From contig CASEIN010000031.1 in NCBI GenBank assembly GCA_949287985.1, positions 1-64,000 of the forward strand: 64,000 nucleotides of DNA, read 5' to 3'. A model generated the notes under the pieces. It did not search any database, was not told the origin of the DNA, and worked only from the letters and a program-made list of their open reading frames with translations. The stretch is from Mucispirillum schaedleri. Its GTDB lineage: Bacteria > Chrysiogenota > Deferribacteres > Deferribacterales > Mucispirillaceae. A program made the translations under genes and the position numbers. This document shows positions 31,087 to 35,987 of the stretch, piece by piece. Each line of letters starts with the position of its first letter. Position 1 is the first letter of the stretch.

Positions 31087-31860
31087 TTATTTTTCTGCCA
31101 GTTCAACAACCTGCACAGGAATATTTCCTACAAGCAGGTTTTTAAGTGATATAAATGCAGGCGTATCATCAGTTACAAGCACTTCTCTTAAGCCTTTACC
31201 ATCTTTTTTAAGGTTTAATTTTGCTATATCTTCAATAATATAGTGAGTGCTGTCCACAACTGATACTTGGGGCAGGTATTTTTCTATTAACTCTTTTAAA
31301 ACAGGGTAATGGGTGCAGCCAAGTATAACTGTATCTATCCCTGTTTTTGCAATATCTTTTAAAGTTTCTTCCACAACAGTTTCTGCCATTTTACCAGATA
31401 TTATTGCTTCTTCCACCAGTGGCACAAATAAAGGGCATGCCTGCTGGTAAACTTGAGCATCTGATAATATGTTTTTTATAGCATGGATATATGCTTTACT
31501 GTTAACAGTAGCATGGGTTCCAAGTACGCCAATTTTTTTATTTTTAGTCAAATCTACGGCATATTTTGCACCGGGTTTAATAACACCAAGCACAGGTATA
31601 TTTAATGATTTTTCTAAATCAGGCAAAGCGTGAGATGAAATAGTATTGCAGGCTACAATTAAAGCAGAAATATTATACTTTTCTTTTAAAAATGAGCCGC
31701 ATTCAATGCTGTACCTAATAATAGTATCTCTTGAACGGTTACCATATGGCACTCTAGCCACATCACCTAAATATATTAAATCATCATCTTTAAAATGGGC
31801 AGATACTGCTTTATATACAGTTAAGCCACCAATACCAGAATCATATACACCTATTGCCAT
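31087..31860 (-). CDS. murI: Glutamate racemase
   Basis: The enzyme makes D-glutamate for peptidoglycan. Both catalytic cysteines are in their motifs (VACNTISSHA and ILGCTHYPVL), and the N-terminus has VYDSGIGGLTV. Length 257 aa is typical. The stop directly abuts that of the sugar-kinase gene. Confidence 0.96.
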   Translation of the reverse strand: MAIGVYDSGIGGLTVYKAVSAHFKDDDLIYLGDVARVPYGNRSRDTIIRYSIECGSFLKEKYNISALIVACNTISSHALPDLEKSLNIPVLGVIKPGAKYAVDLTKNKKIGVLGTHATVNSKAYIHAIKNILSDAQVYQQACPLFVPLVEEAIISGKMAETVVEETLKDIAKTGIDTVILGCTHYPVLKELIEKYLPQVSVVDSTHYIIEDIAKLNLKKDGKGLREVLVTDDTPAFISLKNLLVGNIPVQVVELAEK

Positions 31861-32063
31861 AATTGCCTCAATGCACTACATATCATTTACACACGTATAT
31901 GATAACATATTTATATTAAAAAATAAATATAAATATAATTACTAAGTTTACATAAAAATATTTAGATTACTACAATTTTTATTAATAAACCTTGTCTATA
32001 AATATGATTTAAAAATCAAATCAATTTTACGCCTTTATTTAAAATAATAAAATTAAAATAATT

Positions 32064-33782
32064 TTAAAATGTAATAAGAGTTGGTTTTATAACATCTTTA
32101 TTTTCGTATTTATCAAGTCCTAATAGTATAGAGGTTTTTAAACCCCATAAATATAATAAACCATTATTTGTTAAAGCATACAATTGACCACTAGGATTAC
32201 AAAGTAATTTTTTTACTGGTTCTTTAATATTTATTTTTGTTGGTGTATGTGTATCTTCATAATGATTAAGCCCAAGTTGTCCTTTATTGTTTAAACCCCA
32301 TGCATACACTAAACCTGTATTTGTCAAAGCATATATAGAGCCATTATTTATAAGTATTTCGCTAATGGATTCATCAATCTTTACTTTTACAAGAGTATTT
32401 TGACTTGTAAAGTTTCCTATTCCAAGTTGACCATCATTATTGTATCCCCATGCATACAGCGAGCCATCATTTGCTAGAATATATATTAGGTTGTGATCTT
32501 TCGCAAAATAGATATTATTAACTTGTCCATTGATCTCTACTTTTGTAGGGGTATCAACATACTGTTTATTAATATTAACAATAAGTTGTCCTTTATCATT
32601 ATTTCCCCATGTATATAAAGAACCATTTTTTGTAATTGTATACATAGAATCATTGTTTATAATAATTTCTTTCACTGGCTCATCTATATCTAATTTTTTA
32701 GGTTGGTATACATTATCAAATTGTTCTTTTTTATTATGATGCCAAGTATATAATAAACCATTTTCTGTTATAGCATAAACAACATTGTCTTTATAGAATT
32801 GAAAACCATCAAAAAATACTATATCTTTAACTTTTTCTTGTATATCAATTTTTTTTGGAGCTTTATCTCCATACCAACCTGTATATAAATTGCCCTCTTT
32901 TGTAATAGCATAAACAATATCTGAAAAAGAGCCAGATTTTTGTAAAATCTTAAATTTAAGAATATGTTCTGGAAAATCAACAGGTGCAGGTGATATTCTA
33001 TTTTTATAATCACCTAATTTTAGCTGTCCTTTTTCATTATTTCCCCATGCATATAATGAGCCATTTTTTGCAATAGCATAGTTAGAAATATATACAGATT
33101 TATCATCTGAATTATAAAATCTAACTGAAAATAATTCTTTAAATTGTTCTTCTATAGAATTTATTTTTGTAGGAGTGCTAGTATAGTTATAATTTCCTAT
33201 TCCAAGCTGACCTTCATTATTACTTCCCCATGCATATAATGAACCATTTTTCGTAATAGCATAATTATATATTGGGCTATGAATTTTATGTTCATCAAAT
33301 AAAAAAAATTGTTTAATAGGCTCTTCTATATCAACTTTAATAGGATCAAAATTACCATATTCTTTTCTATTTCTTCCAAATTCATAAAAATTATTATTTA
33401 CTGTTTTAGCATATATTTTAGTATGGTATGCACTTTCAGTGATTAATATATTATCGATAGGTTCTGGAATATTAACTTGTTGCTTTAAAGCCTCTTTAAT
33501 GGTAGTAATTTCACCATCATGTCCAAGAATTAATGAATGTTGATAGTCTCTTTCCTTATACCATGAATATACTAAACCATTTTGATCTACTATATATGTA
33601 TAATCATTATATAATATAAGCTCTTTTACAGAGATATTATTTAATGTATTATCATCTTTTATTATATTATGTTCACTAGTATAAGATGAATTATTTACAC
33701 TAAACCCTAAATTATGGAAAAAACAACCTGTAAACATTAATATTGCAATAAAAATAATTGTAAAATAAATTTGTTTATTCAT
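32064..33782 (-). CDS. RCC1-repeat lipoprotein
   Basis: A lipoprotein signal ends at the lipobox FTGC (about residue 20). About ten repeats follow, of the form NGSLYAWGxNNxGQLGxG-x(8)-PTKI. This is the RCC1 (regulator of chromosome condensation) blade, which folds as a beta-propeller. Some blades are divergent (NGNLYTGWYGDKAPKK). A lipid anchor and no membrane span suggest a surface or periplasmic propeller used for binding. It is the last gene of the four-gene operon that starts at the phase-variable promoter. The bound partner is unknown. Confidence 0.85.
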   Translation of the reverse strand: MNKQIYFTIIFIAILMFTGCFFHNLGFSVNNSSYTSEHNIIKDDNTLNNISVKELILYNDYTYIVDQNGLVYSWYKERDYQHSLILGHDGEITTIKEALKQQVNIPEPIDNILITESAYHTKIYAKTVNNNFYEFGRNRKEYGNFDPIKVDIEEPIKQFFLFDEHKIHSPIYNYAITKNGSLYAWGSNNEGQLGIGNYNYTSTPTKINSIEEQFKELFSVRFYNSDDKSVYISNYAIAKNGSLYAWGNNEKGQLKLGDYKNRISPAPVDFPEHILKFKILQKSGSFSDIVYAITKEGNLYTGWYGDKAPKKIDIQEKVKDIVFFDGFQFYKDNVVYAITENGLLYTWHHNKKEQFDNVYQPKKLDIDEPVKEIIINNDSMYTITKNGSLYTWGNNDKGQLIVNINKQYVDTPTKVEINGQVNNIYFAKDHNLIYILANDGSLYAWGYNNDGQLGIGNFTSQNTLVKVKIDESISEILINNGSIYALTNTGLVYAWGLNNKGQLGLNHYEDTHTPTKINIKEPVKKLLCNPSGQLYALTNNGLLYLWGLKTSILLGLDKYENKDVIKPTLITF

Positions 33783-33803: not shown

Positions 33804-34400
33804 TTATTTTTTATTAATAAAAAAATGAGAGAATTTTTCGAAGCATGCATCATAATCAGGAAGAATATGTTGTGTTTCTTTAGTATTTTTTGTATTTGTT
33901 TGAAATATATCAATGGAAGAGACAAACATTGTTTTTAAAGGACGATATCCCGAAGTATTTTTTTCATTAAATACTACCCTTAATATAAAATCGGTATTTA
34001 TTCTCTCTGATAAAAACTTATATGCATTAATGCATGGGATATCACCACTTATTATATGATCAATTATGTTTGAATCAAATTTTATAACTTCAAAAATAAT
34101 TGTTTTATCACTATCCATTGTGCTCATTCTTAATGAATCTGTATGTTTTAAATCAATCATTTCAGCTATTGCATTAATAGCAACTTTTGCTTTTTCAACT
34201 TCAGCATAATAGTAAAAAGGCATATTATCAGGACAATTATCTACACATGTATAATTATCAAGATGACTAAAAATAGTTTTTCTAATTTCAGCAAATTGCC
34301 TAGATGATATATATTTTTGAGTAATATCTGCTTGTGATGTATACGCAAAAGAAAACAATATAATTAATATAAACAGCAAATTATAAAACATTTTAATCAT
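33804..34400 (-). CDS. Hypothetical secreted protein
   Basis: The signal peptide is MIKMFYNLLFILIILFSFAYTSQA. The 174-residue mature part is mixed alpha/beta with a cysteine pair (YTCVDNCPD) and a third cysteine in IPCINAYKF. No family is recognised. An AAGG site precedes it. It lies between two lipoprotein genes, 21 bp before the RCC1 gene, and is probably in the same transcript. Confidence 0.75.
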   Translation of the reverse strand: MIKMFYNLLFILIILFSFAYTSQADITQKYISSRQFAEIRKTIFSHLDNYTCVDNCPDNMPFYYYAEVEKAKVAINAIAEMIDLKHTDSLRMSTMDSDKTIIFEVIKFDSNIIDHIISGDIPCINAYKFLSERINTDFILRVVFNEKNTSGYRPLKTMFVSSIDIFQTNTKNTKETQHILPDYDACFEKFSHFFINKK

Positions 34401-34456: not shown

Positions 34457-35335
34457 TTACCAGCCATCTGTTTCATTACTATCAAGAAATTTTGAATGAA
34501 TATCTGCATTATACCCTTCCCCACCTTCTTTACCATCTGCACCTAATGAATATATTTCATAGTCTGCTTCCACAGTTTCTGCTGGACATCTATAAATATA
34601 ATTATTTCCCCATGGATCTTTTGGAACAATGTTTGCTGAAAGATATCCACTAGGGTTCCAGTTATTAGGAATAGGTTCTAACTCTGGTTTTTTTACAAGG
34701 GCCTGTAAACCTTGACTAGTAGTAGGATAGTTACCATTATCAAGTTTATACATCATTATAGCTGTTTCAAATACTTTAATATCATTTTGCGTTTTTTTTA
34801 CATTCTCTTTAAGTTCTTTCTTTGAATATTTCTTTTGAGCTGGTTTTTGTTTTGGTATAGCTTTTAAATCATCAACCTCAAGAGTAACATATATTTTTTT
34901 ACCATCATCTGTGTGTTGTGCTTCATAAACTATATCCAATGCTATACCTATTTCATTAAATTTAGCTGTTGCCTTGCAAGAGCATTTTTTAATAGACTTA
35001 TCAACATTTGTAGAAAATATCTCATCAAGAGTTATATTTGTTGTTTGTAAAAAATTTACATCATACTTAAGCAAATTTAAAAGCATATTTATTTCATTGT
35101 CTGAATATCCTTCCTTTTGTAATTCTTGTTTTAAAATAATTGAAAAAGTTTTTTTATCAATAAATAGTGACATTCCTTCTACTGTTTCTGATAAATCTGA
35201 CTTAATATTTATTAGTTGTTCTCTAGAAAGTTTAATTGCTAATTCTTTAACATTATCATCACTACATTTTGGTGTCTTATTTAGGCAGCTAGATAATAAC
35301 ATTACTAAAAATATTGAAAATAAAATTTTTTTCAT
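34457..35335 (-). CDS. Lipoprotein with a GspG-type pseudopilin C-terminal domain
   Basis: The lipoprotein signal has lipobox LSSC. Residues about 25-170 form an unrecognised domain with a CSC motif. Residues about 190-290 match the C-terminal part of GspG major pseudopilins: a helix ([20 protein letters not shown]), [27 protein letters not shown] and [12 protein letters not shown] with the calcium-loop aspartates. The usual prepilin leader and hydrophobic stalk are missing, so it cannot be a normal pilin. The start is nine bases after GAGG; an ATG five codons upstream overlaps the previous stop (ATGA) and could also be used. Confidence 0.82.
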
Positions 35336-35346
35336 ATTAAATAACC

Positions 35347-35751
35347 TCATATTTCTGATTTTATAAAAAAATCATCAGTAAAACCCCATGCAATTTTAAC
35401 TTGTTGTTTTATGTGTTCATTATTATCTTTAATTCTAAATCCATGTGTTAAATAATATTTTGCAGTCATTTTATTACCTTGAACAAAAAATGTACAAGAA
35501 ACTCCTAGTGATAAAAAATTGACAATTAATAAATATTGTTCCAAATAACTAGAATAGTAACCCGCATCAAACAGAGCAATATTAATAATATGTGTTATTA
35601 GCAGTAAACAAATAATTATGCCATAGGAATACATTTTTCTAATAAAAAAAGGTATTCCAAACAACATACCAAAAAAGAATAATGTCCAGCTATAACCTAA
35701 TTTAACTTGTCTTGCCTCACCTGTTACAGGATGTATAAAATTTACATACAT
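35347..35751 (-). CDS. Membrane protein resembling DUF2628
   Basis: A short N-terminal segment mentioning [20 protein letters not shown] leads into two or three membrane helices. The tail has [12 protein letters not shown], which resembles DUF2628 membrane proteins. The role is unknown. It is the first gene after the promoter with the C9 spacer, has a strong AGGAGG site, and its stop overlaps a potential start of the next gene. Confidence 0.72.
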
Positions 35752-35780
35752 AAAATATGCCTCCTAAAAAATTTTCTTCA

Positions 35781-35807
35781 GTATAGCATGGGGGGGGGAA
35801 TGTCAAG
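35781..35807 (-). promoter_or_regulatory. Promoter with C9 tract in the -35/-10 spacer (candidate phase-variable promoter)
   Basis: On the minus strand a perfect TTGACA is followed by a 15-base spacer (TT, nine Cs, ATGC) and TATACT, with the TG of an extended -10. Nine identical G/C bases in such AT-rich DNA are striking. The optimum spacer is 17, so a gain of two Cs would give the ideal promoter and the present allele is predicted to be weak. Slipped-strand changes in such tracts are known to switch porA in Neisseria. Confidence 0.8.
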
Positions 35808-35987
35808 ATTAAATTTTAAATATATTAAATTTATTAAAAATAAAGTAAATTTGTTAAATAAGATATTTGTATAACTGCTTTTACATGTAGGATAATATAT
35901 AAATAATGCATTACTATTAACTCTTTTTAAAATAAACTATACATATTAAAAAAAATTATCTATATTAGTAGAAAAAATGGAAATAAT

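Follow-up and report, generated by a model that had tools for sequence, protein, structure and literature searches.

A minus-strand promoter in the window (the whole 64,000-nucleotide stretch of Mucispirillum schaedleri DNA analysed here) carries nine C residues between its -35 and -10 hexamers, and promoters of the same kind are found throughout the genus. Judged from the sequences, phase variation by slippage is probably the best explanation of these tract promoters. In the proposed mechanism a slippage-prone C9 tract would set the distance between the -35 and -10 regions of a sigma-70-type promoter. Strand slippage during replication would give rise to cells with a spacing of 14, 15, 16 or 17 bp, and the changed spacing would alter transcription of the envelope operon behind it. 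The promoter would belong to a genus-wide set, serving mostly lipoprotein genes, that operates alongside poly-G frame-shift loci within genes. That the tracts slip within populations, and that transcription changes as a result, is what we infer; the observations from which we do so are given below.

The promoter, at 35806-35780, reads TTGACA-TT-C9-ATGC-TATACT with a spacer of 15 bp and lies 28 bp 5' of the first gene of the operon. Its tract, CCCCCCCCC, stands on the minus strand between TTGACA TT and ATGC TATACT. The -35 hexamer is exact, and the extended -10 region (TGC-TATACT) combines a hexamer with five of six matches and a TG one base before it. The elements are, in the direction of transcription:

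35807..35820, minus strand: AT-rich stretch plus a C, immediately before the -35 hexamer
35801..35806, minus strand: -35 hexamer TTGACA
35790..35798, minus strand: C9 tract within the 15-bp spacer
35780..35789, minus strand: extended -10 region ATGC-TATACT (TG at 35788-35787, hexamer at 35785-35780)
35760..35765, minus strand: ribosome-binding site (Shine-Dalgarno) AGGAGG

The ATG of the first gene follows the AGGAGG at 35751. This is the sole match to the motif within the window, where 0.02 would be expected from shuffled sequences, and C9 at 35790-35798 is the window's only C or G run of at least seven. Like promoters of the porA/fetA type, that at 35806-35780 thus has a G/C homopolymer between -35 and -10, and here too the tract lies upstream of surface or envelope genes. 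Four closely spaced open reading frames on the minus strand are found downstream, followed by a possible read-through gene:

35347..35751, minus strand: gene 1, multi-pass membrane protein of 134 aa, no Pfam family
34457..35350, minus strand: gene 2, lipoprotein of 297 aa with a C-terminal GspG-like domain (Pfam T2SSG, 5e-35)
33804..34400, minus strand: gene 3, 198 aa, signal-peptide-like N-terminal start, no family
32064..33782, minus strand: gene 4, RCC1-repeat lipoprotein of 572 aa, lipobox ...LMFTGC
31087..31860, minus strand: glutamate racemase-like murI (named from sequence), possible read-through gene

Gene 2 probably starts at an internal MKK and has the lipobox ...MLLSSC. The C-terminal part of its product (34457-35350) matches GspG, the pseudopilin of type II secretion, with an NCBIfam TIGR01710 match above the cut-off; the product is without the pilin N-terminus. 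The first-pass annotation had described both a promoter of this anatomy (TTGACA, nine Cs, a 15-bp spacer and an extended -10 on the minus strand) and an envelope operon behind it. Reading of the sequence confirmed the former, and the latter was borne out by a membrane protein in first place and lipoboxes in genes 2 and 4.

murI begins 203 bp beyond gene 4 on the same strand. Between the RCC1 gene and murI no terminator-like site was found in 31840-32200, and the only minus-strand promoter-like match in this region is a weak one at 32190-32163, inside the RCC1 reading frame. The operon transcript may therefore reach murI, so that a usually essential gene may be fed by the operon promoter.

Homologues of gene 1 lie behind C-tract promoters in three relatives, G005, G006 and G008, the last with two copies. 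The orthologous promoters have C9 in G005, C9 with a spacer of 14 in G006 and C8 with a spacer of 14 in G008, and the order next to murI is kept in G005 and G008. In most of these places lipoproteins and secreted proteins come next after the gene 1 homologue.

The window genome (G000, 2.44 Mb) contains 29 C/G tracts of at least nine once overlapping matches are merged. A first-order Markov model derived from the window gives an expectation of about one, so that long tracts are in clear excess over composition, as in known phasomes. Nine further tracts of this genome sit in similar -35/-10 spacers. Genomes were covered by pattern searches and by reading the sequence surrounding the matches. A search with the pattern TTGAYA-NN-C5 gave 47 places over ten Mucispirillum genomes, mostly the same promoter, and reading of all fetched tract loci genus-wide led to 73 accepted spacer promoters, about 6-11 per well-assembled genome. 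The single promoter noticed at first is in other words one of many C/G-tract spacer promoters that recur across the genus, with tract lengths of 7 to 11 (C7 in 2, C8 in 6, C9 in 55, C10 in 9 and C11 in 1). Their association with promoters was counted in the four genomes in which every listed tract of at least eight was taken: 31 of 136 tracts have an exact TTGACA on one side and, on the other, a -10 with five or more of six matches. The corresponding figures are 3 of 1786 for positions 5' of genes that lack a tract and 9 of 20000 for random positions. G001, G002, G003, G008 and G009 were left out of this rate because their stretches had been chosen for promoter-likeness. Three arrangements can be distinguished:

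Arrangement I: cTTGACA-TT-C9-RTGA-TATAAT, spacer usually 15
Arrangement II: TTGACA-AAT-C9/10-TATAAT, without TG, spacer 14-19
Arrangement III: TTGACA-N10-G9-TATGAT, spacer 19, with G9 in all six copies

In the TG-type promoters (arrangement I) a spacing of 15 is commonest (37 of 49), and an A-rich stretch followed by a C, the latter present in 92%, precedes the -35 hexamer. The mirror-type G9 promoter is seen in the window genome at L001:1486-1530 (G000:C65:135614), with similar ones in G001, G002, G003, G007 and G008.

The tract promoters drive about 27 gene families, most of which encode lipoproteins. By a simple rule a lipobox was found in 42 of 70 first genes as compared with 6 of 57 genes of the window, and the same bias was obtained when families were counted (16/27 vs 6/57, p = 5e-6). 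A signal-peptide-like start, again by a simple rule, was present in 11 more of the 70 first genes and in 15 of the 57 window genes. Since the design is repeated several times per genome and mostly precedes lipoprotein genes, the genus probably uses its tracts as random on/off or up/down switches.

Between relatives the lengths of the tracts differ in part. Orthologous promoters with flanks that are 98.3% identical have C9 in G002 and C7 in G003; a second pair, with flanks 95% identical, has C9 in G000 and C10 in G005; and in a third promoter family with closely similar flanks C8 is found versus C9. One of the promoter differences between close pairs, that of G000:C72 and G005:C1, goes back to an A replaced by C next to the tract. 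Per base, promoter tracts changed in length about 4-fold more often than their flanks acquired indels (p = 0.04), and for coding tracts the excess was 13-fold (p = 3e-7), in a comparison of few pairs that are not independent. Slippage had originally been proposed for the promoter at 35806-35780 itself. The idea gains from the relatives, in which orthologous tract lengths differ and coding tracts shift frame, and loses at its own locus, where both the window genome and its nearest relative G005 have C9 with a flank identity of 98.3%. The two are sister species, and all tract comparisons are between species.

Tracts within genes make a stronger case for slippage than those in promoters. Of 51 coding tracts, 49 have G on the coding strand; 33 tracts are in frame and 18 are not. 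As in phasomes described elsewhere, coding tracts open or break reading frames between relatives: the frame of a sulfatase gene is open in G000, which has G10, and interrupted in G005, where the tract is G9. Among the genes whose tract is in frame are those for a sulfatase, a DNA methylase, a GT8 and a GtrII glycosyltransferase, located in G000 at L006:739-2745, L021:71-1777, L029:1012-2034 and L030:914-2422, respectively. Sulfatases, DNA methylases and glycosyltransferases are classes typical of phase-variable genomes. Orthologues of some of these poly-G genes are shifted out of frame in relatives, which makes a phasevarion driven by the methylase conceivable.

It might be argued that the nine Cs are not a switch at all. 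In the most serious of the other explanations, which we nevertheless regard as rather unlikely, C9 would be a regulator-binding site or a DNA-shape element of a lipoprotein regulon; the length of nine would be under selection and slippage mere noise. The search patterns allowed other lengths, and still 55 of 73 promoters have C9, and 37 of the 49 TG-type ones have a spacing of 15. The bases flanking the tract, TT before and RTG after it, are conserved as well, and the G9 variant has a spacing of 19 in 6 of 6 copies with the N10 gap. The near-constancy of C9 did at first seem to favour a fixed element over phase variation, but this argument was dropped after a control with coding tracts, in which C9 is equally common (65 of 93, p = 0.49). 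Constancy is for this reason no evidence of a constraint specific to promoters, and nine may simply be the length at which slipping tracts of this genus come to rest. The occurrence of lengths 7, 8, 10 and 11 within the same promoter family also argues against a fixed element, for which no regulator was identified. Across the tract promoters the flanking spacer bases did not compensate for tract length. What keeps this explanation alive is that promoter tracts are somewhat less variable: coding tracts differ in 9 of 15 close pairs, promoter tracts in 3 of 15 (p = 0.06). C9 in the two sister species and the usual spacing of 15 bp likewise leave room for a fixed-length regulatory element. A more specific form of the proposal, which we would rate slightly lower, is that a regulator or DNA-shape switch reads C9 or G9 as nine C:G pairs in a spacer of off-optimum length (15 or 19, i.e. 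17 ± 2), and in this way controls a regulon of lipoproteins throughout Mucispirillum, slippage being secondary.

Very improbable is a tract without function that was inherited with a promoter cassette, spread with duplicated lipoprotein genes and was tolerated. Some of the promoters do precede lipoprotein genes that are paralogues and resemble one another in their upstream sequence, but about 27 families of first genes are without mutual BLASTP matches, the tract occurs in three arrangements (C with TG, C without TG and G tract), and it is kept between species. An assembly artefact or a chance homopolymer can practically be dismissed: although most of the genomes are draft metagenome assemblies, the same promoter is present at orthologous places in independent genomes, the family is also found in the single-contig genome G006, and 29 tracts stand against about one expected.

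If phase variation by slippage is accepted, it must be asked which tract length would represent the active state. The first-pass annotation had considered the 15-bp spacer sub-optimal, with one or two additional Cs raising expression. This is a plausible extrapolation, with porA and tp0126 as its sole basis; their spacer tracts work best at 17 bp (PMC7864442). By this analogy both resting states, 15 bp and 19 bp, would give little transcription, and rare changes by two bases would increase it. A point against phase variation is that, were 17 bp the best spacing, most tract promoters would be weak in each of the genomes, the TG type at 15 and the G9 type at 19. Among tract-free consensus promoters of the genus (TTGACA with TGNTATAAT) a spacing of 16 is commonest, in 8 of 21 matches, several of which are orthologues.

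Outside the genus, a pattern scan of GTDB revealed scattered C-tract spacer promoters with a spacing of 13-20 and lengths of 7-13, including some in Treponema and Clostridia. Those at L076, L095, L104 and L132 (Treponema), at L105 (Spirochaetes) and in several gut Clostridia have a spacing of about 16-20 and lengths of 8-13; several precede genes with a ribosome-binding site, so that the design is similar in unrelated gut bacteria. A genome of the sister genus (G011) has more than 50 C/G tracts of at least eight, mostly of length nine, of which only about 4 of 20 inspected (L292-L311) are in promoter-like places. In a further genus of the same family the four genomes have only 1 to 4 such tracts each. 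Viral contigs L312-L329, several of them near-identical, share the promoter TTGACATTCCCCCC with six Cs and a spacing of 17. These C6 promoters at 17 bp on phage contigs were rejected as a comparable family, as they are not long tracts.

Mucispirillum, a member of the Deferribacterota, is a core commensal of the mouse gut and has been linked to inflammation in mouse models (PMC5285517). If the tracts do switch, the combination of lipoprotein promoters with glycan and DNA-methylase genes would create many surface types in a clonal population, with consequences for host recognition, phage resistance and differences from strain to strain. The sequences name the exact loci at which tract lengths can be counted in existing reads.

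A literature search, with most subscription journals outside its coverage, found no report of phase variation in Mucispirillum. The closest known systems are porA and fetA of Neisseria, in which poly-G or poly-C lies between -35 and -10 and its length sets the spacing (PMC7864442, PMC5320596). The promoters described here resemble these in having a homopolymer in the spacer of an envelope-gene promoter. For Neisseria there are measurements of the variation and of the transcription that results from it. In Mucispirillum one near-identical promoter occurs many times per genome, mostly before lipoproteins and with a modal spacing of 15 (or 19). Treponema pallidum, of an unrelated phylum, also has homopolymer tracts in promoters of surface genes: poly-G is found in the promoter regions of several of them, and in tp0126 the tract lies between -35 and -10 (PMC7864442). 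The poly-G of the tprL promoter is mostly 9, and yet ranges from 7 to 11 within isolates (PMC7864442), so a consensus of nine does not exclude switching. In the fim2, fim3 and fimX promoters of Bordetella a C tract is likewise present, and one extra C was accompanied by a 3.8-fold lower fimX transcript (PMC1891110). There, however, the tract lies between the -10 and a region bound by an activator, while the Mucispirillum promoters have a consensus -35. Campylobacter, another gut bacterium with many poly-G/C tracts, has them mostly in genes, about 20% of its phase-variable gene groups holding intergenic tracts (PMC6321876); the tract promoters of Mucispirillum, unlike these, are of a common standard design. 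The mechanism is thus already known from Neisseria porA/fetA and Treponema tp0126, but the re-use of one standard promoter across a genus of gut commensals looks to be unreported.
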